Below are positions 13,063-42,709 of a stretch of DNA of 50,099 nt, one piece after another. The stretch spans positions 1 through 50,099 of IMG/VR virus record IMGVR_UViG_3300035703_000135, one strand, 5' to 3'. The translations under genes and the position numbers were made by a program. Each line of letters opens with the position of its first letter. The first letter of the stretch is position 1. Origin of the DNA: a virus. The notes beneath the pieces are model-generated. The model searched no databases. It saw only the letters and a list, made by a program, of their open reading frames with translations, and was not told the DNA's origin.

Positions 13063-14165
13063 ACTTCCCTCACTAATTTGATTTTGGTTTCTAACTCGGT
13101 GACAGATTGGCAGGCGACTTGGTAAGTCCCCTGCCAATCTGCTATACCACTCAACACACGTTCCAACTTTGACTGCTTCGCTCGCGACTCTGCGAGTCGC
13201 TTGCTTGCTTCGAGCAGGAGATCCACGTCGCCGTGGATCTCCTTAGTCGATGTGAGGCGTTGTATTGCAGATTGCAATACAACGAATCGGGATTGCTTGG
13301 CGGCAATCTGCTCGCCCTGCTTTTTCAGTTTTGCTAATCCTGATCCAACAGTATTAACTAAACTGATCTTGGCCGACACGTCGGCCAAAGGTGCAACCGT
13401 CGTCAGAATCGCCTTACGGCGATTTTGCTTGTCGGCTAAAGCCTTGGCCTGATCGGCCAAGGCTTGCAAGCCTAGTATCAACTTTTCTAATGCTAGCAGA
13501 GACTTGGATAGCTCCACGACTACCTGCGTCTTGTCAGACAGCAGCGTGTATCGGCTTTGCTTATCCTGCAACTCTTGCATAAGCACTATTAATGATTCGT
13601 GCTGGGCCAGAACGCCTGGAACCCAGGCGATCTGGTCAAGTTCTGCTTTCTGCTTCTCGGCGATGGTTTCCATCGCCGAGAGTTCGCCCTTGGTTCGAGT
13701 AGCGTTGCTGGCCGCCATCGCGTTTGCCTTGTCGATGATCGACAAGTCCACAATGCGGTTGAGTTCCTTTGCCATCTGGCCTGGGGATAGCGTCAGTAGG
13801 AATGGGGCATCGTGCTGGCCTTGCAGGTTGATCTCCGAGAGTCCGAGTGTAGCTTGGACTTCGGATGGTTGCTTCGTGGCGCACGCCACGAAGGTCTGTC
13901 CGGCGACTCTGTAGCCGTACCCCTCGGATGGATGCTTGAATCGAGTGACCTCGCCTCTCTCAGAGGCGATGGTCACTTCGGTATGCGGCTCGTCGAACGT
14001 CTGCAATCCGGTGATTGGCTTGTGTTCCACAAGCCACCGGATTGCACGAAAGACGGACGATTTACCTGAATTGGTTTTGCCTGTGATTAAATTGACGTTC
14101 GGAACGAACGTCAATTGTCGGTCGCGGTGGGCCTGGAAATTGGTCAGGTGGATTTCTGTGAGCAT
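13035..14165 (-). CDS. SbcC/Rad50-like ATPase, N-terminal half ending at the zinc hook
   Basis: A 376-aa protein. An AAA/SMC head begins TEIHLTNFQAHRD and has Walker A GKTNSGKSS (29-37) and a Q-loop NLQGQHDAPF near 112. A long coiled coil runs from about 150 to 365, and the protein stops right after CPTC (369-372), the Rad50 zinc-hook motif. Full-length SbcC would return along a second coil to the C-terminal lobe, which here is encoded separately at 11236-11799. Overlaps both neighbours by about 25 bp. A 12-bp/3-nt and a 12-bp/4-nt hairpin lie in the coding sequence. Confidence 0.88.
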   Translation of the reverse strand: MLTEIHLTNFQAHRDRQLTFVPNVNLITGKTNSGKSSVFRAIRWLVEHKPITGLQTFDEPHTEVTIASERGEVTRFKHPSEGYGYRVAGQTFVACATKQPSEVQATLGLSEINLQGQHDAPFLLTLSPGQMAKELNRIVDLSIIDKANAMAASNATRTKGELSAMETIAEKQKAELDQIAWVPGVLAQHESLIVLMQELQDKQSRYTLLSDKTQVVVELSKSLLALEKLILGLQALADQAKALADKQNRRKAILTTVAPLADVSAKISLVNTVGSGLAKLKKQGEQIAAKQSRFVVLQSAIQRLTSTKEIHGDVDLLLEASKRLAESRAKQSKLERVLSGIADWQGTYQVACQSVTELETKIKLVREVCPTCKRPL

Positions 14166-15364
14166 TTTGCTGGTAGATACTTACTAGGTACGAAGTGTTC
14201 CTTGATGATGCCATTCTCGACCATCTGCATCGAAGCTAGCAGCAATTCGACTATGGCATCCATCCCGTTATACGTCAGGAGCTTTGGTGTGGGAATCGAA
14301 AATATCTTGTTTCGCTGAGAATTTTCCTCGGACTCGAAGAACGAATCCACATCATCAGCGAAGTAGGGCACGCCCAACTTCGCAAACGCCTGAAACTTCA
14401 AGCCCGTGATGCCGCTATTGGGATTCTCCCAATGCGCGGCCTGCATCGTATCCCACCACCACCGGCGAACCTGAACCCCCAGCTTGGATCGGCTCCACCG
14501 ATCCTCGAACTTCATGTTCGCAGCAATCTTCTGGATGTCCGATACCAAGAATCGCCGAATCGCATCGTGCGTGTCGGCGAACACCGGGAACGATATGCAA
14601 TGTACGTCGCCTTCGGCGACGTGCGCCACCGCCATCGACACGATCAACTGGTTGTCCCACTCGGGCTTTAGCCCGGTGGTTTCATAGTCGAACGCTGCGA
14701 TCTTGGCCGTCTTGGTGATCTTGTCCAGTTCAGCGATGATCTCTTGGGCGTGGTAGACCTGTCGGATTCGACTGCCTAGCGGTACGCACCCATCGGGCCA
14801 CGGGCGGCCCGATATTCGCATCGCATCCCGTAGGTACTTGTACTCAAACATGCTCGACACGTCGAGCATCCGTTTGTGTTCGCCCATGAGGCCCACCGGG
14901 CAGATCCAGGCGTTGAGATCCCTGCAAGGGATCACCGCGCCGTACCACCGGTCGTAAAGCTCGGCAGGCTGTTGCCAGTACCGGCCAATGACAGACTGCG
15001 TGGCCCTTGGCCCGTAGGGAATGACGACTTCGGGGTTGAGGCGAGCGAGTTCGCTCGCCACAAGCGGTTGGCAATGCCTCCACGCCTCATTTGAGGCCCC
15101 TGGGCAGGCCGCTGCTGGCACTTTAGGGTAAGCATCAAGAGTTACGCCAACCCGACTGCAAACTGTCCCTAAACGGCCAAATTGGCCGTTTAGGAGAGCA
15201 TCCGGCGCGTCGTCACCGGCTTTATCGACCACAAAGACGACTTTGGCCGGTTTACCCGGCCAAGTCTGCTTTGGATGCTGGCAACTTCGGTCTGCCTTGC
15301 ACGTCCCGCAAAGCGGGACGACGGGCAAAGACTTAGTTAGCTTTGCGGAAGCGAACAGCGGCAT
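14144..15364 (-). CDS. UDG-like domain fused to a DnaQ-like 3'-5' exonuclease
   Basis: A 406-aa protein. Residues 1-190 resemble the family 4 uracil-DNA glycosylase fold (PLCGTC near 17-22, a VVFVVDKAGDD segment, AACPG and RHCQPL, then EVVIPYGPRATQSVIG), with Cys spacing that could hold an Fe-S cluster. Residues 210-380 are a DEDD exonuclease: AAFDYETTGLKP (Exo I), AANMKFEDRW (Exo II), YNGMDAIVEL (Exo III). This corresponds to the N-terminal portion of some phage family A polymerases, but the polymerase domain is a separate gene at 25445-26800. It probably supplies proofreading. Confidence 0.82.
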   Translation of the reverse strand: MPLFASAKLTKSLPVVPLCGTCKADRSCQHPKQTWPGKPAKVVFVVDKAGDDAPDALLNGQFGRLGTVCSRVGVTLDAYPKVPAAACPGASNEAWRHCQPLVASELARLNPEVVIPYGPRATQSVIGRYWQQPAELYDRWYGAVIPCRDLNAWICPVGLMGEHKRMLDVSSMFEYKYLRDAMRISGRPWPDGCVPLGSRIRQVYHAQEIIAELDKITKTAKIAAFDYETTGLKPEWDNQLIVSMAVAHVAEGDVHCISFPVFADTHDAIRRFLVSDIQKIAANMKFEDRWSRSKLGVQVRRWWWDTMQAAHWENPNSGITGLKFQAFAKLGVPYFADDVDSFFESEENSQRNKIFSIPTPKLLTYNGMDAIVELLLASMQMVENGIIKEHFVPSKYLPAKCSQKST

Positions 15365-23246: not shown

Positions 23247-24149
23247 CTACGTCGAAGCCCTGACCAAAGCAAGAATAAATCCTGGTTTGCGGGAAGAAAA
23301 AAATGGATTCTCAAACTGAGACATGATCTTGACTACGGTTGGTACGGATTTTGAATTCAAAATCATTGTCGCACCGTAGGACATGATCGCACAGCGCAGT
23401 CGCTCGATCTCCCCTTCGGGGAGATCCTTCAAGACTAGGCTATGCGTCGGGAAGATTTTCCTTCCGGCGTATAGATCCTGAACCAGCTTGAATACGTCTG
23501 GTTTGAGTTCCTCGGGGTTCCCGAGGATATCCGGCCAACGCTCCTTCGGAGCGTTGGCAATCTGCTCTAGCAGTACCAAAGCTTGCCTTGGACTGCCATT
23601 GGCCGCCTGCGAGATCGTCGTCGGGATGCAGTCGATCCCTTCGGCGGTCGCTACCCTGCCTACTAGGGTGTTCAAGTCGGCGATGCTGACATCGCCGAGC
23701 TTGAAATGCGTCAGACGAGTCTGCAACGGCTTTTCCAGCTTTTCCGGGTTGGTCGTACACAGGATGAAGTAGACGTGCGCCGGAGTGTCCTCGGTCATCT
23801 TGAGCATGGCTCGCTGACCTTGGGATGTGATTTGGTGGGCTTCATCGATGATGTAGATCCGCTTGCCCCCAGAGAGCCCACGCATTTGCAATCGGCCCTC
23901 GATCTCGCGGATAGCGTCAACTCCGTTGTCGCTAGCTGCGTTTTTCTCGATGATGTCAACGCCGGATGCTCCGAGTTCCTTGGCGAGTATTCTCGCCAAG
24001 GTCGTTTTGCCTGTTCCGCTAGGGCCGGAAAACAAGAGTGCATGAGGCAATGCTTGCTTGGCAAGCATTGACTTCAACTGGTTGACAACGGCTTCCTGGC
24101 CGACAAGATCGGCCAGGGTGGATGGTCGGTACTTTTGATAAAGGCCCAT
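23247..24149 (-). CDS. clamp loader AAA+ ATPase (DnaX/RFC-like)
   Basis: A 300-aa protein beginning with the RFC/DnaX box LYQKYRPSTLADLVGQE. Walker A is GPSGTGKTT, Walker B is IYIIDEAHQ, sensor 1 is FILCTTNP, and TRLTHF occupies the SRC arginine-finger region. It should load the sliding clamp (16155-17162). One loader subunit is visible in the window, so a homo-oligomer or a second subunit elsewhere are both possible. Its start overlaps the dNMP kinase stop. Confidence 0.88.
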   Translation of the reverse strand: MGLYQKYRPSTLADLVGQEAVVNQLKSMLAKQALPHALLFSGPSGTGKTTLARILAKELGASGVDIIEKNAASDNGVDAIREIEGRLQMRGLSGGKRIYIIDEAHQITSQGQRAMLKMTEDTPAHVYFILCTTNPEKLEKPLQTRLTHFKLGDVSIADLNTLVGRVATAEGIDCIPTTISQAANGSPRQALVLLEQIANAPKERWPDILGNPEELKPDVFKLVQDLYAGRKIFPTHSLVLKDLPEGEIERLRCAIMSYGATMILNSKSVPTVVKIMSQFENPFFSSRKPGFILALVRAST

Positions 24150-24766
24150 TACTTTAGAAATCCCTTCATAATTTCGGTGATCCGGCGTTGGAACTGGGGG
24201 AGTGATCCGTCGTTTAGGACGATGCGATCAACAGCAAATTGCTGTTGTTCGCTTCGGTGTGCAGGCAAGGTTGCGACTTCCTCGGAGACTCGCCCCTGGA
24301 TTTCCCAAATCTCGCCGCCGTTGGATTTGATGAACTCCGCTTCCTCTGGGAAGCGGAGATCGCGAATCGCGTACCTCGGCAGATTCTTTTCTCGCATACG
24401 TTGCTTAGCGATATTCACCCAACAGTAGTTGCCAAATAGATCCCTGCCATTCTCCGTACCGATGGTACGGAGCATTTGTCGAACGGCGGGATACCGCCGT
24501 TTGGTCGTGTCCCATCCGTCCTTATCAACGAGGGTTTGCAAATAGATACACCGGTGGTGGGCGACCAACACCGGGGGATTGAGTCGGTACAAGGCTTCGT
24601 ACACAGGATCGGAGAACCCCATAATCCCGTAGCCGAAATGGTACGCAAGCCATGAGGCTGCGGTATCCTTGCCGGAGCCAATAGCCCCCCGCAATCCGAT
24701 AATTGGAGGTAATTTGTCTAGCTTGCCTTGTACGGTCGGTTCTTGTTCCTGGACGGTTTCAGACAT
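24149..24766 (-). CDS. deoxynucleoside monophosphate kinase
   Basis: A 205-aa P-loop kinase: Walker A GLRGAIGSGKDTAA near residue 24-37, GFSDPVYEAL, and an RQMLRTIGTENGRDLFG segment typical of phage dNMP kinases such as T4 gp1. It phosphorylates dNMPs for DNA synthesis, matching the thymidylate synthase and nucleotidase genes. The 5' end overlaps the preceding homing endonuclease gene by 49 bp. Confidence 0.83.
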   Translation of the reverse strand: MSETVQEQEPTVQGKLDKLPPIIGLRGAIGSGKDTAASWLAYHFGYGIMGFSDPVYEALYRLNPPVLVAHHRCIYLQTLVDKDGWDTTKRRYPAVRQMLRTIGTENGRDLFGNYCWVNIAKQRMREKNLPRYAIRDLRFPEEAEFIKSNGGEIWEIQGRVSEEVATLPAHRSEQQQFAVDRIVLNDGSLPQFQRRITEIMKGFLK

Positions 24767-25398
24767 TCTTCACCTATTTTCCCTTTTCTGATGCGTTTCA
24801 ATACAGTTGTGCGAGCCAATCCATACTGGTCGGCCCATTCTGTATAGTGTTTAGTGACTCCATCTATTGTCAATACTATTGAACAGCGTTTGTTAAGTGA
24901 TTGTTCGATTTTTGTTGCCCATCTACAGTTTTCTGGGCAATAGTCTCCGTTGTTGTCGATGCGATCCAAAGAATGTCTATTGCTTGGACGGTCTTGCATA
25001 TCACTGAGGAAATTACTAAACCCATCCTCCCCGAGCCAGCGTTCACACACCCTAACTCCTCGTCCTCCGTAGTTGTGGTATGACTTGTTGTTTGGGTTGT
25101 AGCATCTGGCTTTCATGGCTAGCCATATATTGTGCAAGCTGGTCTTGGCTCGAAGGTGCTTGCCTACAGATTCTCGTACTCGCAAGTCCCTGTAGCATCC
25201 ACAACTGGTTGTTTTTCCGCCTCGAACATTGTCCCAAAAACAGCATTTGTAGGTTCCGCAATGGCATTGCACCACTACTAACCAATCTACCCTTGTTTGC
25301 GATTTACGAACACGGAACGGAGCCCCAACAACTTTTAGATTGCCAAAGACTTTGCCTACCTCCGAGGGCAGGATTTGAATACCATTGCAGTTTTCCAT
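24718..25398 (-). CDS. free-standing HNH-type homing endonuclease
   Basis: A 226-aa protein. An N-terminal Cys pair region (CHCGTYK...TTSCGC) precedes the block HNIWLAMKARCYNPNNKSYH, then GGRGVRVCERW and SLDRIDNNGDYCPENCRWAT, which fits the HNH-like homing endonuclease family common in phages. The C-terminus (TEWADQYGLARTTVLKRIRK) looks like a DNA-binding helix-turn-helix. AAGGAG precedes the ATG. It sits between the polymerase and dNMP kinase genes, interrupting an otherwise compact block; such genes spread by cutting alleles lacking them. Confidence 0.82.
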   Translation of the reverse strand: MENCNGIQILPSEVGKVFGNLKVVGAPFRVRKSQTRVDWLVVVQCHCGTYKCCFWDNVRGGKTTSCGCYRDLRVRESVGKHLRAKTSLHNIWLAMKARCYNPNNKSYHNYGGRGVRVCERWLGEDGFSNFLSDMQDRPSNRHSLDRIDNNGDYCPENCRWATKIEQSLNKRCSIVLTIDGVTKHYTEWADQYGLARTTVLKRIRKGKIGEECLKPSRNKNRPYKAS

Positions 25399-25444: not shown

Positions 25445-26800
25445 CTAGCTTTTATGGTATGGTTTTTTATCGGCCCACGATTCTCCAACTTCTGTTTCCG
25501 TACTGAGGGGCAGCACTATCCAAGGCCACTGTGCGGCCAGTTTGTGCGTCATAATGGCGTTTGTCATTTCTATGTAATCATCGACTTCCTGTCTAGGTAC
25601 TTCCGCCAGAATAGAATCGTGAATCTGGCAGATCAATCGGGTTCCCATGCGTCTTTTGAGAATTTCTTTGGTAATCTCAATAACGCTTTTGAGAAGGCAG
25701 TGAAACGCGCATCCTTGGGTTTCTACGTTCAGGATCTCGTTTCGCTTGTAGACTCCATGAATTCTGAATCCAGTCTTTGTGTATAGACAGCCGTTTCGCA
25801 AATACCCTTCCCAGGTATCGTTTCGCCACTTGGCGAAAACCGGAAATCGTTGCGACCAGAATCTATCGCAAACGCCTTTCATGTGGTATGTGAAAGTATC
25901 TGGGGACATATTGTGTTCTGTGCCCAGTGATCGAATGTTTTTAGTCTTGAGGTATTCGTGCACTGGAACGTCGTTATATGTTGCTGACTCTGCACTTTTC
26001 CAGAGCTTTTTAGCAATGGCGGCATAGTAGTCTCCATAGATCAAACTGAAATTCGTGACTTTTGCCATCTGTCGCAAAGGCTTAGGAACATCTTCTCCAA
26101 GGAAAAAACAATCCTGAGCAGTGGCTCTATGGAAATCAAATCCAGTGGTTAGGTACTCCATCATCGAAGGATCTCGATGCAAACACGCGCCTATCACCAC
26201 TTCTAGGGTTGAGTAGTCGATCTCCACAATCACGTTGTTCGGATCGCTAGGCTTGATAATCCCCCGAATCACCTTCCCGATGTCGGGATCTCGGATCGGG
26301 ATGTTCTGCAAGTTCGGAGAATCCGAACTTGACCGATACGTCGTAACCTTGTGCAAATTGAAAAAAGCGTGAACTCTGCCGTTGCAGAGTTCACGTTTGA
26401 ATGGGGCCAGATACGTCCCACGCAGCTTTTCCAACTTCTGTGTGCGTTGGAATAGCTTTGTGTATGGAGTATTGATTTCTTGCAGGGCTTCGTCATCCAG
26501 AGACAGTTTACCTGTCTCTGGATTGATGACCCCGCCTGGGTGTCCCATGACGATGTAGAGGATATTGGCTAGTTGCTCTCGGGAGCCAAGTTTTGTCTTG
26601 GCTCCGTATCGCTTTCGCTGTTCCTCATACTCAGGCATCGACCGCAATTCCGCTTCCATCCCCTTGATGCGATTGCCGATGTCGGCAATCGCAGTATCCA
26701 GACGCTCTGCGCAGACTGGCATACCAACGCTTTCCATCCTGGAAAGCGCAAGAGATCCTTCGTGCATCAAGGCGTAGGCTTGTGGGGATGCTGGTTTCAT
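25445..26800 (-). CDS. polA: DNA polymerase family A, polymerase domain only
   Basis: A 451-aa protein. Motif A is EIDYSTLEVVI near 195, motif B is RQMAKVTNFSLIYGD near 250 (Phe at the E. coli 762 position), and motif C is QIHDSILAEV near 400. Motif C has HDS where most family A enzymes have HDE, so one carboxylate is replaced. No exonuclease domains are present; they are separate genes at 14144 and 18351. It is the likely replicative polymerase. The next gene upstream stops at its start. Confidence 0.9.
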   Translation of the reverse strand: MKPASPQAYALMHEGSLALSRMESVGMPVCAERLDTAIADIGNRIKGMEAELRSMPEYEEQRKRYGAKTKLGSREQLANILYIVMGHPGGVINPETGKLSLDDEALQEINTPYTKLFQRTQKLEKLRGTYLAPFKRELCNGRVHAFFNLHKVTTYRSSSDSPNLQNIPIRDPDIGKVIRGIIKPSDPNNVIVEIDYSTLEVVIGACLHRDPSMMEYLTTGFDFHRATAQDCFFLGEDVPKPLRQMAKVTNFSLIYGDYYAAIAKKLWKSAESATYNDVPVHEYLKTKNIRSLGTEHNMSPDTFTYHMKGVCDRFWSQRFPVFAKWRNDTWEGYLRNGCLYTKTGFRIHGVYKRNEILNVETQGCAFHCLLKSVIEITKEILKRRMGTRLICQIHDSILAEVPRQEVDDYIEMTNAIMTHKLAAQWPWIVLPLSTETEVGESWADKKPYHKS

Positions 26801-34816: not shown

Positions 34817-35173
34817 TTATAACCCCTCCCCTTCCTCTACTTCGATGTCGATTTCCTTGCAGGCGATGCGATTAACACCTGCGCCCGCATCGGCATCCTC
34901 CCTGTTTTTGTGTACGTTAAAAGCACCTCCTGGGTAGCAATTAACCCACATCCTTACTCGCACCTTCTTTTTTGGTGGAGGTGCAAGGTTGCGAGGGTGG
35001 TCTGTTGTGCCCCACATCAACCTACCGTCAGCGTGCCATCCAGCAGGGACGAAGCCATCTTGACCCATCATCCTGCCGGTGTATCGATAATGCTCCTGCT
35101 CCTCATTGATCGCATCGATAAACGCATCTTCGCCGTTAGCCAGTTTAACCGGCCCGACTTGCCATTTGTTCAT
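34817..35173 (-). CDS. hypothetical protein
   Basis: A 118-aa protein beginning MNKWQVGPVKLANGEDAFID with a beta-rich middle (KVRVRMWVNCYPGGAFNVHK) and an acidic tail. The MNKWQVGPVKLANG type of start is familiar from small phage proteins with unknown function. The chosen ATG 35173 excludes an unlikely N-terminal extension. Confidence 0.68.
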   Translation of the reverse strand: MNKWQVGPVKLANGEDAFIDAINEEQEHYRYTGRMMGQDGFVPAGWHADGRLMWGTTDHPRNLAPPPKKKVRVRMWVNCYPGGAFNVHKNREDADAGAGVNRIACKEIDIEVEEGEGL

Positions 35174-35204
35174 TGTTACTTTCCTCGTTGCTCTTGGCTC
35201 ATAA

Positions 35205-35651
35205 TTAGGCCCTTTCCAAAACAGAATCGAACGCCTCGGCGATTCGATTCTTGCCCCAACCCGCTTCGACAAGAGCGTTTTCAACGCTCTTGCGAATCGT
35301 CTTGTGTTTCTTGCCGCTAGCGGCAAGATCCAAGGCAAGTCGAACCACCACCGACGAATCGTCGTCGGAATTTCCATCGTTGGTCGCCACCGCACCATCG
35401 CACACTACCTCAGAATTGCTCTTGACGCAGGATCGAACTTTGCGAGATCGCAAAGTCGTGATGATTTGGCGGGTGACCACCATATGGATATACGTCGATA
35501 GCTTGGCCTTTTCTGGATTAAACTTGGCAAGTTTCTCGGAAACTGCCAAGTAGCCGTCAGAAACAGCGTCGTCGATGTCGATTCGGTACTTCTTTGCTGT
35601 GACAATCGCGAAAACTTTGGCGAGATGATACGCCTCGTTATAATCAGTCAT
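35205..35651 (-). CDS. sigma-70 region 2-like factor
   Basis: A 148-aa protein. Residues 12-55 (AIVTAKKYRIDIDDAVSDGY, then KFNPEKAKLSTYIHMVVTRQ) match sigma region 2 core: the acidic D-rich helix, the xFDPEKxxxSTY segment and the helix binding the -10 element. The rest has no clear region 4. GGAGG lies before the ATG. As the first gene of the leftward replication block it might redirect host RNA polymerase, but a structural resemblance without promoter function is possible. Confidence 0.65.
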   Translation of the reverse strand: MTDYNEAYHLAKVFAIVTAKKYRIDIDDAVSDGYLAVSEKLAKFNPEKAKLSTYIHMVVTRQIITTLRSRKVRSCVKSNSEVVCDGAVATNDGNSDDDSSVVVRLALDLAASGKKHKTIRKSVENALVEAGWGKNRIAEAFDSVLERA

Positions 35652-35741
35652 GGTTTGCCTCCTATGGAATGAAACTGATGTGAAGTAGTCTATCGGGATG
35701 TTGTCTTGTTGCAATGACAATTTCCCACAATCGGGTGGAAA
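35652..35741. promoter_or_regulatory. divergent intergenic region, probable promoters
   Basis: 90 bp separate the divergent starts at 35651 (minus) and 35742 (plus). A TTGCAA...TAGACT pair with 16-bp spacing reads leftward but is weak. The strand arrangement implies promoters for both directions; I cannot fix their exact position. Confidence 0.4.
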
Positions 35742-36182
35742 ATGTCCAAAATAAACAAGAATTGCAATCTCGGAGACGTAGTGCGAGTGGTTTTCGACGA
35801 CCACTCCGAGGGCGAACAACACGTCGTTTTTGAAGTTTTCGGGCGTGTCTTGCGGAAAGACAGGCGATCCTTCGTGATCGCCTGCTGGAAGTACGCCGAT
35901 AGCGACGTGGACGAAGAAGATCGAAACATGACCGTTTACACGATTCTCCGCGCGGCGGTGAAATTCATCGACATCCTAGTACCCAAAGAAACATGCCACT
36001 TCCCTACCACAAAAACCAAGACGACGGCAAACAACTCCCCCCGAAAGCGTGCAAATTCTGCTGCTTCTCGTCAGGTAGCGGGAAAGCCAGAGTGTGCCGA
36101 TACAATCCACCCCGATCCACCGGATTCCCCAGAGTCGATCACGATGCGTGGTGTTCCAAATACCAGCCAGACGACCACCTGA
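35742..36182 (+). CDS. hypothetical protein, long overlap with next gene
   Basis: A 146-aa frame. Residues 1-84 look like a folded small domain (NLGDVVRVVFDDHSEGEQHV, VIACWKYADSDVDEEDRN). From about 85 the composition turns to Thr/Ser/Pro-rich low-complexity sequence where it overlaps the next gene by 190 bp. Either the overlap is real or a frameshift has replaced the true C-terminus. ATG follows GGTGG. Confidence 0.55.
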   Translation: MSKINKNCNLGDVVRVVFDDHSEGEQHVVFEVFGRVLRKDRRSFVIACWKYADSDVDEEDRNMTVYTILRAAVKFIDILVPKETCHFPTTKTKTTANNSPRKRANSAASRQVAGKPECADTIHPDPPDSPESITMRGVPNTSQTTT

Positions 36183-36259
36183 TCGAAGCGGAAATTCTGC
36201 GAAAGGCCGCAGAAACCAAGAAGAAACTTGAAATTGAGAAAGCTCTCAACCCCAAATGA
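35993..36259 (+). CDS. small Cys-rich protein
   Basis: An 88-aa protein with KACKFCCFSSGSGKARVC...DAWCSKYQP, a pattern suited to a small zinc-binding fold, followed by a charged C-terminal helix. Short phage proteins of this style are familiar. Its stop overlaps the next start (ATGA). Confidence 0.65.
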   Translation: MPLPYHKNQDDGKQLPPKACKFCCFSSGSGKARVCRYNPPRSTGFPRVDHDAWCSKYQPDDHLIEAEILRKAAETKKKLEIEKALNPK

Positions 36260-36639
36260 TCGTTGACTATTCCATCTATGTGACTGCCGATGTAGGCAAG
36301 TGGGCATCGAACACTTATCCAGACAACAGAAAGTGGGTTGCGGAATTGCAGGGAACCTGCAAGACCCGCAACCGGAAGGTAGCTTTGATTCGAGGGGTGG
36401 CTGCCGCACTTGCCGATCTTGATCTGCAATGCAATGTCCATTTGTTTATTGACGACGATTTCCTGGTAGATATAATCGCAGACATAGCTCTTGGGCTGAG
36501 TCCACAATCCGCAGCGGGTATTGGGGACTCGGCCCTTGAGCGTTTATTGGAGCAGATCGATAGGCACATCGTCGTGTTGTGCTACTGGCCCAAGGATAGC
36601 AGGGCCAAGGCCCTGCGTAGACGATTGGACGATCTGTAA
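36256..36639 (+). CDS. hypothetical protein, possibly RNase H-fold
   Basis: A 127-aa protein. An N-terminal MIVDYSIYVTADVGKW strand region, a helix (ALIRGVAAALADL), NVHLFIDDDFLVDII and a final helix follow the order of an RNase HI-like fold. The classical D-E-D residues are not clearly conserved, so this is a weak structural guess. It overlaps both neighbours by 1-4 bp. Confidence 0.6.
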   Translation: MIVDYSIYVTADVGKWASNTYPDNRKWVAELQGTCKTRNRKVALIRGVAAALADLDLQCNVHLFIDDDFLVDIIADIALGLSPQSAAGIGDSALERLLEQIDRHIVVLCYWPKDSRAKALRRRLDDL

Positions 36640-38234
36640 TGGTGAACAAGAGAACTGGGACTTTCAATTCCTATATCGTGCGATCCCCTGATGACAGTTC
36701 TCCTGTTTTTTGCGTCAAATGTGGAAAAGACAAGCCCCTATCAAATTTTTATAAACACAGTGTTCGTGGCGATGGGGCCATTCGATATCGACAATACTGT
36801 AAAGATTGCAGGACAAAAGGCGGAAGAAAGCATTGGCCGAGGCCGAAACATGCGAAAATTCTCGAAGCCGGAGAACAAACTTGCGGCATTTGTTTGGAAA
36901 CTAAACCGCTTGTTGATTTTTATGCAAATGGTTGCTTTGCCGACGGTACAAAGAAGTATAGGACTTCGTGCAAATCTTGCGTGCTGAAAGCACGCAAGAT
37001 TAAACATCCAGAAATATACAAAACAAGCGTAGAAGTCCGTTCTGAATCTCCTAAAAACTACATGGCCAACCTATTGTTAAAAGCATCTAGAAGAAAAGAC
37101 ATATCCAAGTTTGACCTTACTATTGCTTTTTTGTGCGATTTGTTTACCAAACAAGACGGAAAATGCGCCATATCTGGCGTGCCTATGACTTATATTGCAG
37201 GAAAAGGCAGGCAAGCAACCAATATCAGCATTGATAGGATATGTAGCGATGGGCACTATAGTAGGGATAATGTACAACTGGTTTGTCTGGCAGTGAACGT
37301 AATGAAACAGTCCTTTTCTACAGATGAATTGGTATCGTGGTGTTCCTTAATATTGGCCCAAAATGCACAAAAATCAAAATTCGCGGATCAACAAATCACT
37401 CAGGAAATGGGACTGCTGATGCTCGATCATTATCCAACCAACGCCTACGAACATGAAGCAGGGTATCTTACCCTGCTTCATTCAGTTTTCGCCTACGGCT
37501 CACAACAGATGGATCGTACCGGTGTCGGTACGACCAGCATCTTCGGGGCTCAGATGCGGTTCGACCTCCGACGAGGATTCCCACTACTCACGACCAAGCG
37601 ATTGCCGTTTCGGCATATCGCTGAGGAACTCTTTTGGTTTCTCCGTGGAGAAACCAACGTCAAGTCCCTGCAAGCCAAGGGTGTCTCAATTTGGGACGAA
37701 TGGGGTTCTGAAACCGGCGATCTCGGCCCGATCTACGGTAAGCAGTGGCGAGACTTCGGCGGGGTCGATCAGATCAAATGGGCGATGGATGAACTGCGAA
37801 ATAACCCTGCGAGTCGCAGGGTTATCGTGTCGGCGTGGAACCCTGCCGAGATCCCAGACATGGCGTTGCCGCCATGTCATACCCTATTTCAGTTCCACGT
37901 TGACCGGACATTCCTCGACCTGCAACTGTACCAACGATCCGGCGATATGTTCCTGGGCGTTCCGTTCAACATCGCTTCCTACTCGCTCCTGCTGTCGCTC
38001 GCAGCAAAGACTCTAGGGAAGATCCCTCGGTACTTCATCCACACGCTAGGCGATGCGCACGTCTACCTCAACCACCGAGATGCGGTCACTGAGCAACTGG
38101 CTAGGAACCCCAAGAATGAACCAATCTTGCAGATCAAGACTTGGCGAGAGAACCTGTGGGACTACACGTTCGAGGATCTCGAACTCTCCGGCTACGACCC
38201 GATGCCAAAGATCAGCGCACCGGTCGCTGTCTAG
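36639..38234 (+). CDS. thyA: HNH endonuclease fused in frame to thymidylate synthase
   Basis: A 531-aa protein. Residues 25-58 and 82-115 are two similar Cys4 zinc motifs (CVKCGKDKPLSNFY, CGICLETKPLVDFY). About 165-235 is an HNH domain (CAISGVPMTY, SIDRICSDGHYSRDNVQLVC). From about 257 on it is thymidylate synthase: QQMDRTGVGTTSIFG, the LPPCHTLFQF active-site Cys near 414, RSGDMFLGVPFNIASY and HTLGDAHVYLNH. ThyA makes dTMP from dUMP. An internal ATG at 37423 with AGGAAATGG upstream could give a separate, normal-length ThyA. No stop or intein motifs lie between the two parts. Confidence 0.88.
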   Translation: MVNKRTGTFNSYIVRSPDDSSPVFCVKCGKDKPLSNFYKHSVRGDGAIRYRQYCKDCRTKGGRKHWPRPKHAKILEAGEQTCGICLETKPLVDFYANGCFADGTKKYRTSCKSCVLKARKIKHPEIYKTSVEVRSESPKNYMANLLLKASRRKDISKFDLTIAFLCDLFTKQDGKCAISGVPMTYIAGKGRQATNISIDRICSDGHYSRDNVQLVCLAVNVMKQSFSTDELVSWCSLILAQNAQKSKFADQQITQEMGLLMLDHYPTNAYEHEAGYLTLLHSVFAYGSQQMDRTGVGTTSIFGAQMRFDLRRGFPLLTTKRLPFRHIAEELFWFLRGETNVKSLQAKGVSIWDEWGSETGDLGPIYGKQWRDFGGVDQIKWAMDELRNNPASRRVIVSAWNPAEIPDMALPPCHTLFQFHVDRTFLDLQLYQRSGDMFLGVPFNIASYSLLLSLAAKTLGKIPRYFIHTLGDAHVYLNHRDAVTEQLARNPKNEPILQIKTWRENLWDYTFEDLELSGYDPMPKISAPVAV

Positions 38235-39010
38235 CTTATGACCTGACCATCGACGACCGACCGGTCGTCGATCATAAGCCCGTCCATATCGAGCATCCCT
38301 GCTTGCTTACAAGCAAGCAGGATCTTCGACTTGGTTTCTACATCCAAGTCCAGCTTGCTGATGTCGATATGGGCGTGGACATGCTGAACCTGTCCGGTGA
38401 CTTTAATTTCCTGGCCGTACTGCTCTCGATTGAGCCGTTCGTTGGCGAACAGAACGGCTCTCGAATTGCCATCGGCAACCAGTTCCATCAGCTTCGACTC
38501 AACGAAGTTCTTCTTCTGGAAGTGGACTTCTTCCCATAGCTTCGGGAATCGCGGATCGTCTTTGGCCCACTTGTCAAGCTGGGCCTTGGAGATGTCCAAG
38601 AGGCGACAGCATGAGTTCAGATCGAACCTCGTCACGCTAAGAGCGTGGACGAGGAGTCGCTGCTTATCGAAGTCCCCTCGCGTTGCGAGGTTGTACAGTA
38701 CGGCTTCCCGGTCGGATTTCTCCTCGACCAGTTCGTCCCAAAGCTCGCGTAGCTCGTTTGGGAGCGAGTTGCCGACGTGGCGAGCAATCACACCGCTGGA
38801 CTTTCCGGAGTCGCTACTGCCCTCTCTAGCGGCCACAATAGCCCGATAGAAAGCTGGTTCGTTCTGCTTCCACTCTTTGAGCCTGCTCTCGGTGATACCG
38901 AGGGCAGCGGCGAGTTCCGGATCGTTCGTCGTCGTAAGAGCGCAGGCGAACGCCTGCCAAATTCTATCGGGGGTAAAGACGGATGGATTGGTTTCCGGTT
39001 GCGTTGTCAT
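38231..39010 (-). CDS. terminase small subunit-like DNA-binding protein
   Basis: A 259-aa protein with two helix-turn-helix-like repeats (ELAAALGITESRLKEWKQNE and CRLLDISKAQLDKWAKDDP) and a block VESKLMELVADGNSRAVLFA that occurs in many small terminase-like proteins. It would recognise viral DNA for packaging; the large subunit is not in the window. ATG 39010 has AGGA 8 nt upstream. It is convergent with the thyA gene (4-bp overlap). Confidence 0.68.
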   Translation of the reverse strand: MTTQPETNPSVFTPDRIWQAFACALTTTNDPELAAALGITESRLKEWKQNEPAFYRAIVAAREGSSDSGKSSGVIARHVGNSLPNELRELWDELVEEKSDREAVLYNLATRGDFDKQRLLVHALSVTRFDLNSCCRLLDISKAQLDKWAKDDPRFPKLWEEVHFQKKNFVESKLMELVADGNSRAVLFANERLNREQYGQEIKVTGQVQHVHAHIDISKLDLDVETKSKILLACKQAGMLDMDGLMIDDRSVVDGQVIS

Positions 39011-39013
39011 ACA

Positions 39014-39044
39014 GCCAATCCTAGCGATTTTCGCTAGGATTGGC
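39014..39044 (-). other. 14-bp perfect hairpin upstream of the terminase-like gene
   Basis: Arms 39014-39027 and 39031-39044 with a TTT loop lie between the 39050-39739 gene and the terminase-like start and include the presumed ribosome site. No T-tract follows, so it is not a canonical terminator; it could block the start site. Confidence 0.7.
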
Positions 39045-39049
39045 AAGGA

Positions 39050-39739
39050 TTACTTGCGAATCCGGCAGTATCGCCAATCTAAACTTATAGTTCGATATGG
39101 ATAGTAGTTTAGCGATGCAATGGATTCTAGCGTTCGCTTTTCCCACACAGCGTCAAGCGTATCTCGCACTTCGCACTCGATTGGGCCGTTTTTCAAGTCC
39201 TCGACGGTTGGCGAACGCCAACCGTCGTCGGTTGGCTCGACTTGCTTCGGCAACTCGTCAGTCTCAGTCTTGACAGCCTCGACTTCCGTATCGACGATTT
39301 TGACGTGCCATCGGAATCTTGGGCCGTCAGTGCTTTTGTCGTGCAAGTACCTAACGTGGTACGCCATGCCGGTCGTGTTGTTGGGATTTGATCGGTGTTG
39401 CATACCGACCAAAAAGGCTTTGAGAGGTGAATGAGGTGAATTAGGGTTGTCGTTTTCGTAGACCATGCACTCAATCGGGCCATTTTCGAGATCCGAAAAC
39501 TTCGGATCTCGGAGAACCTGCGTCTTGATTTCGCATTGTTTCCACACAAACCCTGTCGATTTGACGTAACACCTTTCGCCATCGCTGAGCCGGAATCCCA
39601 TCAATGTTCCTTCGTGCCACTCTTGATGTTGATTGTCTCGGAAGCGAGCCGCTTGCGGCTCGCCGCCGTCGATCAAGTCGATCAAATCCTGCTTGGTGAC
39701 TGGTCGCCATCCTGATTCAGTTGCTTTGTCAATGGTCAT
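39050..39739 (-). CDS. hypothetical protein with internal repeat
   Basis: A 229-aa protein. Two copies of a module with GWRPVTKQDLIDLIDGG-like start, an R-D/E-x-x...W...GTL middle and a W-x-Y/Q-C-R/E-I end (residues ~10-72 and ~170-228) flank a related central unit. Such repeat proteins occur in phages without known function. Soluble, no signal peptide. Confidence 0.65.
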   Translation of the reverse strand: MTIDKATESGWRPVTKQDLIDLIDGGEPQAARFRDNQHQEWHEGTLMGFRLSDGERCYVKSTGFVWKQCEIKTQVLRDPKFSDLENGPIECMVYENDNPNSPHSPLKAFLVGMQHRSNPNNTTGMAYHVRYLHDKSTDGPRFRWHVKIVDTEVEAVKTETDELPKQVEPTDDGWRSPTVEDLKNGPIECEVRDTLDAVWEKRTLESIASLNYYPYRTISLDWRYCRIRK

Positions 39740-39760
39740 AATTTTGCCCTTAAATGTAGG

Positions 39761-39979
39761 TTACGCTTCATAAAAATCCGCACAAATGACTTGACTCTTG
39801 CCTCGCACTTGCAGTTTCTCGCAAGTGCTTTGCTTTTCGTCAAGCCAAACTTCTTTGCCTTCGTAGCCTTTGTAAGTAGAGGCGAGCAGGCGAGCCTCCT
39901 CCTCATTCTTTGCACGAACTACGACTTCTCGTAGTTCGTCGTAGCTGCAATCAGGTCTGTTCAAAATATACAACGGCAT
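39761..39979 (-). CDS. small phage protein
   Basis: A 72-aa protein, MPLYILNRPDCSYDELREVV followed by VRAKNEEEARLLAS. This VVRAKNEEEAR pattern is familiar from short phage proteins of unknown function. AGGAGG precedes the ATG. Confidence 0.7.
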   Translation of the reverse strand: MPLYILNRPDCSYDELREVVVRAKNEEEARLLASTYKGYEGKEVWLDEKQSTCEKLQVRGKSQVICADFYEA

Positions 39980-40023
39980 AATTTCCTCCTAAGTGTTTGG
40001 GATACTTCGATTCTGCCATAGTT

Positions 40024-40434
40024 CTACGTCGGAGGTTTTTCTATTTTGTCTACAAATTCTTCAACATCGTGCAATTTGCAATGACAAGCATAGCAAACGA
40101 CCATGATGTCTCGACGCTGTTCATGCCCCAGCGTTCGATAATGTTTGTGGTGGCATTGTAGATTTTCTGTGGCTCCGCACATCTCGCAGGCTTTCGTTTG
40201 CTTTCTCCAATAGCGAGATTTTTTCTTCCACTCAATAGATCGTATGTACTCGTGATACTTCGGCCTCTGCTGCTTTTGCTTATTCTTTTTGCCTTTTTGC
40301 TTCTTGTTCTTCGGTTTCTTTCGATTCCTGGGACGCATCTTCGGGGCCGTCGTTTCCAACCATTCTTTGTAAGCCTCTTGCTTTTGTTTGAGCCCGTGTT
40401 GCTCATACCATTTTTCAAAGGCTTCTGGGTACAC
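40024..40434 (-). CDS. HNH endonuclease
   Basis: A 136-aa protein with a very Lys/Arg-rich N-terminal half and a C-terminal HNH domain: CEMCGATENLQCHHKHYRTL, then CYACHCKLHD. The HH pair and two CxxC motifs form the zinc-stabilised nuclease core. GTG 40434 overlaps the preceding stop (TAGTG), with AAGGAG upstream. It may be a homing enzyme or act in packaging. Confidence 0.8.
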   Translation of the reverse strand: MYPEAFEKWYEQHGLKQKQEAYKEWLETTAPKMRPRNRKKPKNKKQKGKKNKQKQQRPKYHEYIRSIEWKKKSRYWRKQTKACEMCGATENLQCHHKHYRTLGHEQRRDIMVVCYACHCKLHDVEEFVDKIEKPPT

Positions 40435-41537
40435 TAGACCAACTCCTTGACCCTAAGGTGGGGTTTCATGCCGTGTTTCAAAAACTCCTCGCGAATGACT
40501 GACTGCACATTCTGGCAATGTTCTTCTGGGACGATGAACTCGTCGTGGATGGTAATCATGGGTATCTTAGCCAGTCTCGGAACGACGGTCGAGATCAGGA
40601 TGGACGACTCCATCCTCTGACACTGCCTAGCGACTTCCTGATGCCCATCTTTTTTGCCAGAAACCAGAAACCTCGCTATAGCCCCAAATTCGCGTTCTAA
40701 CGCATCGTACTCGCACATGGCTGTCATCATACCAACACGCTCGAAAACGCATCGTATGAGGCCATTCTTGGCCTCCTGGCGGGTCTTTCCGGTCAGGCTC
40801 CCGATGTAGTCGTACAGTTCACCGGATTTGCAGAAACTAAACCATCTGTGAAGATCGTCCGAATCGCCGCAGGCGTTTCGGACTACCGCGCCGAGAACAA
40901 ACATCTGACAAGCGGCAACGTCTATCGCCACCAAAGGAGAGTCGCTTTGCAGCATATGGCGATGCCGAAAGGCAGTGAAGTTGGAATGGAATCTTCCGAA
41001 GTCGCATCGACCTGCGTAGAAATCCCCTGCTCCGATGCGATCCCAAGCAAACGCTTGCCAAGCGTTTGCAAACGTAGGTGGCGATTCTGGCAACCAGAAT
41101 CGCTTAAAATGCGACACTAACGCCCTGCTAGGGGAATCTAATGAGCCGTTAGGCAGGTGGGTGATAGGCTTCTGTTTGCGACTAGGTGTGTAAGTTTCGC
41201 ACCTGCCGGTGCGAAACTGTTGTGCCAATCGGATGCTTTGTGAGAAGCAATTTCCTTGGAAATTGCTGTATCTGTCGTTGAACTCGAAGATTTCTGGATG
41301 ACTACGGGCAGCTTTCTTGACCTTATCTGCAACTCCACCAAACTTGAGTCGCCACTTGTCTTTTGGGAAGGGTATGAAGAATCCCAAATCCCGCCGTTCC
41401 TCGGTAGCTGATGTTAGCAACATCAGCAGAAACGACAATCTGGCAAGATTGTCGGCTTGCTCACCGTAAAATTTTGCGCCTAATGGCACAGGAATCCCTT
41501 GGATTCCGTTGCCTTTGTGGCGTGTTTGTGGTAACAT
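40434..41537 (-). CDS. palm-domain polymerase-like protein of unknown function
   Basis: A 367-aa protein. GRFHSNFTAFRHRHMLQSDS, then VAIDVAACQMFVL resembles a motif A (Asp), RQEAKNGLIRCVF resembles a helix with Lys like motif B, and MITIHDEFIVPEEH resembles motif C of family A polymerases. I know related proteins from other phages and plasmids, with no proven activity. It could be a second polymerase or primase. ATG 41537 was preferred over an earlier TTG. First gene left of the strand switch. Confidence 0.6.
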   Translation of the reverse strand: MLPQTRHKGNGIQGIPVPLGAKFYGEQADNLARLSFLLMLLTSATEERRDLGFFIPFPKDKWRLKFGGVADKVKKAARSHPEIFEFNDRYSNFQGNCFSQSIRLAQQFRTGRCETYTPSRKQKPITHLPNGSLDSPSRALVSHFKRFWLPESPPTFANAWQAFAWDRIGAGDFYAGRCDFGRFHSNFTAFRHRHMLQSDSPLVAIDVAACQMFVLGAVVRNACGDSDDLHRWFSFCKSGELYDYIGSLTGKTRQEAKNGLIRCVFERVGMMTAMCEYDALEREFGAIARFLVSGKKDGHQEVARQCQRMESSILISTVVPRLAKIPMITIHDEFIVPEEHCQNVQSVIREEFLKHGMKPHLRVKELV

Positions 41538-41611: not shown

Positions 41612-41650
41612 GCTTTTACGATTCGCCATCGGCTATTCTAGCCCTACTCT

Positions 41651-41852
41651 GCGCAAATTGCAAATTTGCGCAACCTCACTACGTTCGGTTGCCATATGCG
41701 CGCAACCTCACTACGTTCGGTTGCCATATGCGCGCAACCTCACTACGTTCGGTTGCCATATGCGCGCAACCTCACTACGTTCGGTTGCTATATGCGCGCA
41801 ACCTCACTACGTTCGGTTGCTATATGCGCGCAACCTCACTACGTTCGGTTGC
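41651..41852. repeat. hairpin plus six copies of a 32-bp direct repeat
   Basis: Copies begin at 41671, 41703, 41735, 41767, 41799 and 41831, period exactly 32 bp. Each has CAACCTCACTACGTTCGGTT, with GCAACC/GGTTGC as arms of a 6-bp stem, and a linker of C(C/T)ATATGCGCG. Copies 1-3 have CCATATG and 4-5 CTATATG. A 9-bp hairpin (41651-41671) precedes the array. There are no variable spacers. It occupies the divergent junction, so origin iterons or operator clusters are the leading options. Bases 41853-42088 hold no gene. Confidence 0.92.
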
Positions 41853-42088
41853 GGGGTCGGGAGCCCCGCCTCCCCCAATATGTGGCACAAATTGCTGTTT
41901 GACCAATGAAAACATTGGGTAAACGCACGAAAAAATTAACAACCAATTGCACCGAAGTTTCGACCCATTTTTGACCCAAAATTTGATCCAAAATGGGGTC
42001 GATTTTGACGCAAGTTTTTCTTTGTTGGCTAAGGTCGGCTACAATGATGGGCAGTCTTGCCCATCACCCTTACCCTAGAAAGCCAAAA

Positions 42089-42709
42089 ATGGCTAAACCA
42101 GAGCAGACTGAGCCAACCCGTCGTAAGTTCAACGCGAGTCAGGAAACGGGAATGAAACTCTTGCAGGAGTATCCGATAGTGGCCTTGGTCGGCCCTGCGG
42201 GCTCGGGCAAGACGCACCTTGCCCTCGAATACGCCGGGTGGGCGATCCGCAGGCAAAAGGCCGAACGAATCTTTTTCGTTCGGGCTCCGGTGGAGATGGG
42301 CCGAAGTTCGCTGGGGTACATCCCCGGCGAACCCAACGACAAGATGGCCCCGTATGTCGCACACGCCAAGGAAATCGCCAAGGAAATTGGCATCAGCGAA
42401 CACGCTCTTAGCGTGGTTCCGCTGTGCTACGTTCAGGGGCGTACTTTCACCAACTCGGTTGTGATTGTGGACGAGTGCCAAGTCCTCGACTTGGACGAGT
42501 TCAGGGCAATTGTCACTCGACTCGGCAAAGGATCTACCATGATTTTTTGCGGAGATCCGGCTCAAGATACTAGACATCAAGGGCGATTCAGAGTATTTTT
42601 GGATAAAGTGCAAGGTTTGTCGTGTGTAGCGATTCAGCGGTTTACCGCTGCTGACAACATGCGACACCCTGCGATTATCGAAGTTTTAGATGCTTTGGAT
42701 GATGCTTAA
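42089..42709 (+). CDS. phoH: PhoH-like P-loop ATPase
   Basis: A 206-aa protein with Walker A VGPAGSGKTH, an RAPVEMGRSSLGYIPG segment, Walker B VVIVDECQVL, and a TMIFCGDPAQDTRHQG sensor region, all diagnostic of PhoH. PhoH-like genes are common in phages; their role may involve RNA or stress metabolism. ATG 42089 was preferred since the upstream in-frame sequence is not PhoH-like. First gene of the rightward block. Confidence 0.88.
   Translation: MAKPEQTEPTRRKFNASQETGMKLLQEYPIVALVGPAGSGKTHLALEYAGWAIRRQKAERIFFVRAPVEMGRSSLGYIPGEPNDKMAPYVAHAKEIAKEIGISEHALSVVPLCYVQGRTFTNSVVIVDECQVLDLDEFRAIVTRLGKGSTMIFCGDPAQDTRHQGRFRVFLDKVQGLSCVAIQRFTAADNMRHPAIIEVLDALDDA

Follow-up and report, generated by a model that had tools for sequence, protein, structure and literature searches.

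We report a gene in which the frame of an HNH/endonuclease VII-like nuclease runs into that of thymidylate synthase (ThyA), found in the 50,099-nucleotide stretch of viral DNA analyzed here (the window). Comparison with viral relatives suggests that the stop codon of a free-standing nuclease gene was most likely lost through a deletion in a neighboring DUF6321 gene, which would have joined the nuclease to ThyA in frame. The fusion is probably genuine but accidental, a one-off genome scar and not a purpose-built two-function enzyme. The distribution of related sequences indicates that the nuclease tracks DUF6321, with thyA as an apparent bystander.

One frame for a nuclease and a thymidylate synthase

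Translation of the window yields a single frame of 531 codons without a stop (36639-38234, plus strand). In its product, a pair of Cys4 motifs precedes a nuclease core within residues 1 to ~247, and residues 261-531 are ThyA. This agrees with the original prediction of two Cys4 motifs in frame with a complete ThyA and its active-site Cys. The ATG of the frame overlaps the TAA (36637-36639) of a 127-amino-acid gene, which forms the left edge of an interval that varies among relatives. GC content is ~0.34-0.45 in the HNH segment and 0.50-0.57 in the flanks, so that the segment is AT-richer than both.

Table 1. Features of the fused gene and its surroundings (positions in the window).
Feature	Position	Strand	Basis
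Conserved 127-aa gene, function not assigned	36256..36639	+	75-97% identity in L002, L003, L006, L007
HNH/endonuclease VII-like nuclease, only own stop missing (fusion residues 1 to ~247)	36639..37377	+	homologs L042-L052
First Cys4 motif, C25/C28/C54/C57	36711..36809	+	cysteines conserved in L042-L052
Second Cys4 motif, C82/C85/C111/C114	36882..36980	+	C111 invariant, C82/C85/C114 nearly so in 32 sequences
Predicted beta-beta-alpha nuclease core, residues 195-225 (NISIDRI...DNVQLVC..VNVMK)	37221..37313	+	AlphaFold2
18-codon frame MHKNQNSRINKSLRKWDC, carries DUF6321 tail	37363..37419	+	TGA 37417-37419 overlaps thyA ATG
DUF6321 remnant, last 13 codons NSRINKSLRKWDC + TGA	37378..37419	+	identical to L002 DUF6321 end from 37381
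Complete thymidylate synthase (fusion residues 261-531)	37419..38234	+	PF00303 1e-104

The ThyA part is intact. Its PF00303 match covers profile positions 3-266 of 266, the whole ThyA domain, and the conserved family residues are present. The active-site Cys, residue 413 of the fusion and C153 of ThyA, is invariant in 12 sequences. The full-length domain, the catalytic residues, and the C-terminal APVAV are shared with other phage ThyA proteins, to which the fusion adds an N-terminal extension of 260 residues. Compared with ThyA of the viral contig L002, dN is 0.05 and dS 0.32, which indicates purifying selection, although most of this divergence probably predates the fusion, and the comparison reveals little of the fusion itself.

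The fusion is direct and N-terminal, as had been predicted, and involves neither an intron nor an intein. A group I intron was rejected on the grounds that thyA is uninterrupted and that Rfam returns no intron at 35000-40500. An intein was rejected because ThyA is complete and has the nuclease on its N-terminal side, an N-extein is missing, and the linker is DUF6321 debris. A different arrangement is seen in contig L027 (2101-3531), where one open frame encodes a ThyA whose sequence is broken in frame by ~200 endonuclease-like residues (LLNVWQRMMLRCYDP...). No Rfam intron scores above threshold for this insert, which may be either an intron that is read through or a genuine in-frame insertion.

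The nuclease-ThyA frame might also have been kept because a bifunctional enzyme is useful, for example by shielding a selfish gene from loss or by engaging a nuclease in DNA or nucleotide metabolism. The 531 codons are clean, both domains retain their conserved family residues, and N-terminal fusions to thymidylate synthase are tolerated elsewhere, as in the protozoal DHFR-TS. Against this, the linker is out-of-frame debris of DUF6321, a close relative (L288) has no thyA at the same place, and the fusion is a single instance. A survey of 109 viral thyA loci yielded no second HNH-ThyA fusion, and of the 3,908 phage records with a match, not one spans 80% or more of the fusion protein; these figures cover the viral and phage collections, as distinct from the plasmid, E. 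coli, genome_contigs, and PADLOC ones. Nor was an in-frame nuclease-ThyA fusion found in the titles, abstracts, and passages returned by a literature search. We therefore regard a functional bifunctional enzyme as quite unlikely. Other viral ThyA proteins with N-terminal extensions, read stop to stop (L275, L207, and others), have no HNH or DUF6321 profile match; they have the appearance of frames left open by chance where the DNA is rich in GC.

The nuclease and its DUF6321 neighborhood

The N-terminal half is predicted to be a nuclease with an unusual active site. The phage profile phrog_1035 (“endonuclease VII”/HNH) matches it at 5.4e-30; no Pfam family scores above its cut-off there, and a sequence search of the PDB with the HNH part gave no match. 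The AlphaFold2 model of the nuclease (mean pLDDT 87) has strands at residues 195-200 and 212-216 and a helix at 217-225, and its best structural match in the PDB, albeit a weak one (E 3.5e-3, prob 0.98), is the beta-beta-alpha-Me (bba-Me) nuclease Hpy99I. The modeled bba core and the profile match point to membership in the HNH/bba-Me superfamily, and to that extent the predicted HNH core stands. It falls short at the usual general-base position: the catalytic His expected at the end of the first strand is absent from this nuclease family. The SIDRI motif places D199-R200 at that position, followed by N211 and N220, and S197-x-D199-R200-I201 is nearly invariant in 32 relatives. Some members of the superfamily use residues other than His, and the chemistry of the predicted nuclease may likewise rest on other residues.

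One of the closest described parallels is F-CphI, an endonuclease VII-type homing endonuclease from a cyanophage (PMC6083498). The fusion's nuclease shares with F-CphI/DHHRN the endonuclease VII profile match, the N-terminal Cys motifs, and a core in the C-terminal half; Hpy99I also served to model F-CphI in that paper. It differs from F-CphI and Endo VII in that the DHDH motif with its conserved first His, by which the same paper defines DHHRN, is absent: SIDRID is found here, with the catalytic His replaced.

The nearest homologs of the nuclease are free-standing genes next to DUF6321. A single-sequence HNH scan of viral contigs gave no match and a profile scan was needed, which returned 506 relatives, the best 80 of which were kept. 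The nearest 11 (L042-L052) are 46-58% identical to the nuclease over almost its full length, and each of these genes terminates near the junction point, its own stop no more than a few codons away. DUF6321 lies directly 3' of the HNH gene at all 11 of these loci and at 26 of the best 80 of 506, the HNH stop and DUF6321 start mostly overlapping or a few bases apart. Since the loci were retrieved with the HNH sequence only, this neighborhood was not selected for. The genes around the pair vary (endolysin-like, tail-like, and RecB-like, as read from translations). The original prediction held that relatives with the HNH part as a separate gene would speak against a fusion; separate genes are the rule for the HNH family overall, whereas in this contig the frame is fused.

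A homing target in thyA itself, as the original prediction implied, would place the nuclease at its target in the window, where it is directly 5' of thyA, a gene known as a home of intron-borne endonucleases (T4 td/I-TevI; PMC2988022). This finds no support in the 80 HNH loci and 109 viral thyA loci surveyed. A thyA match is present in the flanks of none of the best 80 of 506 HNH loci, and the fusion's HNH is present at none of 80 thyA loci; the nearest HNH genes adjoin DUF6321, and close relatives of the window have DUF6321 before thyA. Homing to thyA is thus highly improbable.

DUF6321 itself is widespread and usually stands without the nuclease. It is present in 507 phage records, mostly cyanophages, and of 75 DUF6321 loci whose upstream sequence is long enough, not one has the HNH. 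Those cyanophages and pelagiphages that were examined have DUF6321 without HNH, sometimes as the C-terminal portion of a longer protein, as in the T4-like cyanophages L122 (157-1746) and L125 (478-1761). In phage S-P4 this longer protein carries a structural annotation, a hint that the domain may act in the virion. A literature search for DUF6321 found no paper. On a DUF6321 tree, built from few columns and an uneven sample, the presence of the HNH switches at least three times across well-supported branches, and seven times by parsimony, as expected of a mobile neighbor.

This distribution, in terms of sequence, is that of a free-standing homing endonuclease: sporadic, beside one gene, and with empty sites in relatives. 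Because the nuclease is sporadic beside one gene, DUF6321 is its candidate target, and we put the chances that it is a homing endonuclease aimed at DUF6321 as about even. Alternatively, the pairing could mean that the two proteins are functional partners. In T4, stand-alone endonucleases situated between conserved genes are well documented (Mob proteins; PMC2988022), as they are in other phages (PMC10448857). Like the T4 Mob proteins, the nuclease is a compact gene between conserved genes that occurs sporadically beside one particular neighbor; unlike them, it has lost its stop, its frame runs into the downstream gene, and homing is here a matter of inference.

Several other features of the window were observed. 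An HNH-like ORF (24718-25398, minus strand) lies between a DNA polymerase ORF (25445-26800) and a kinase-like ORF (24149-24766), overlapping the start of the latter, and a second HNH-like ORF (40024-40434, minus strand) matches Pfam HNH only weakly (E 0.12). An ORF at 14144-15364 (minus strand) is uracil-DNA-glycosylase-like and exonuclease-like and lies ~10 kb from the DNA polymerase ORF, also on the minus strand; from the translations, by eye, polymerase and exonuclease appear as if split over these two genes. Near-identical in-frame repeats of ~126 bases (SSGRTFKDLSSALGMAVPQVKDLSAAYLGLASTTAAAAAPL) occupy 1-530, at the start of a tape-measure-like ORF, and short tandem repeats (ARNLTTFGCHMRATSLRSVAICAQPHYVRL in one frame) lie at ~41640-41900, upstream of a PhoH-like ORF (41993-42709).

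The junction and the relatives of thyA

Five close viral relatives carry DUF6321 where the window carries the nuclease. Six viral contigs (L002-L007) have a ThyA 84-93% identical to that of the fusion and remain collinear with the window to either side; none of them has the HNH. In L002-L006, the order is 127-amino-acid gene, DUF6321, thyA, and the DUF6321 stop overlaps the thyA start as TGATG in all five. The DUF6321 product has 93 amino acids in these contigs, and the L002 copy was identified by PF19846 (2e-21). The original prediction had proposed that close relatives with an uninterrupted thyA would define the insertion point, and they place it in the interval between the 127-amino-acid gene and thyA.

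What remains of DUF6321 in the window is its tail. The full frame that formerly ended at the thyA start is lost, and from 37381 into the thyA start the DNA matches L002 base for base, with no indel. The fusion reads this remnant out of frame as the linker FADQQITQEMGLL, leading to Met261. The 18-codon frame that carries the DUF6321 tail might restore translational coupling to thyA; its own ribosome site is weak.

A sequencing or assembly error might instead have hidden the stop of a separate HNH gene overlapping thyA, through a missed base. The fusion comes from a single metagenomic contig, and the HNH homologs terminate at stops of their own only a few codons from the junction. The flanks are nevertheless collinear with those of relatives, and the match to L002 from 37381 onward is exact. 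As the downstream tail has no indel relative to the relatives, a one-base error would be confined to the ~10 codons before 37378. We consider such an error very unlikely. The junction represents real DNA order and not a chimera, since one set of relatives is collinear with the window on its left and on its right.

The interval between the 127-amino-acid gene and thyA appears to be unstable among relatives. L007 has lost DUF6321, leaving a scar that starts ATGGCTAAGAAA and continues into TTTTGCTGATG. L288 (3547-3822 and downstream), the flanks of which are 91-93% identical to the window, has kept DUF6321 and lost thyA at this place, the join lying close to where thyA would end.

The native start of thyA has been preserved within the fusion. 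The internal ATG of the original prediction is the in-frame native start, which L002-L006 share together with the sequence before it, but it lies at 37419-37421 (Met261 in fusion numbering) and not at 37423; a further in-frame ATG is at 37407. Its ribosome site, which had been called good, is moderate: the best anti-SD pairing is -4.8 kcal/mol, the same as in L002, L003, and L006, where for arbitrary ATGs in the window the median is -2.9 and the 10th percentile -6.3 kcal/mol. The DNA just upstream is that of L002. Since the start and the preceding DNA are unchanged, free ThyA may still be produced. On this sequence, ThyA may be supplied as the fusion, as free enzyme from the native ATG, or as both.

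Origin and meaning of the fusion

The simplest ancestral order would be upstream gene, HNH, DUF6321, thyA. A free-standing HNH gene 5' of DUF6321 would have come to lie between the 127-amino-acid gene and thyA. Deletion or one-sided recombination in DUF6321, extending from the 3' end of the nuclease to near the 3' end of DUF6321, would then have removed the HNH stop and most of DUF6321, with the frame into thyA kept by chance. The 13 remaining DUF6321 codons and stop, read in the thyA frame, would join the nuclease to an intact ThyA. We infer the order of these events from the comparison of loci. An HNH-DUF6321-thyA intermediate is present in none of the contigs searched, so HNH arrival and DUF6321 loss may have been one recombination event.

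It is unlikely that the fusion is expressed and retained, with a single mRNA yielding the nuclease-ThyA fusion as well as free ThyA initiated at the internal native ATG. If it were, a selfish nuclease would be bound, both physically and in its translation, to an enzyme of nucleotide synthesis. The history proposed here would show concretely how a free-standing phage nuclease can enter the frame of a metabolic enzyme through loss of the intervening gene, the tail of the lost gene remaining as a linker. It also suggests that this nuclease family, the nearest members of which all lie at the 5' edge of DUF6321, is a candidate homing endonuclease together with its candidate target.
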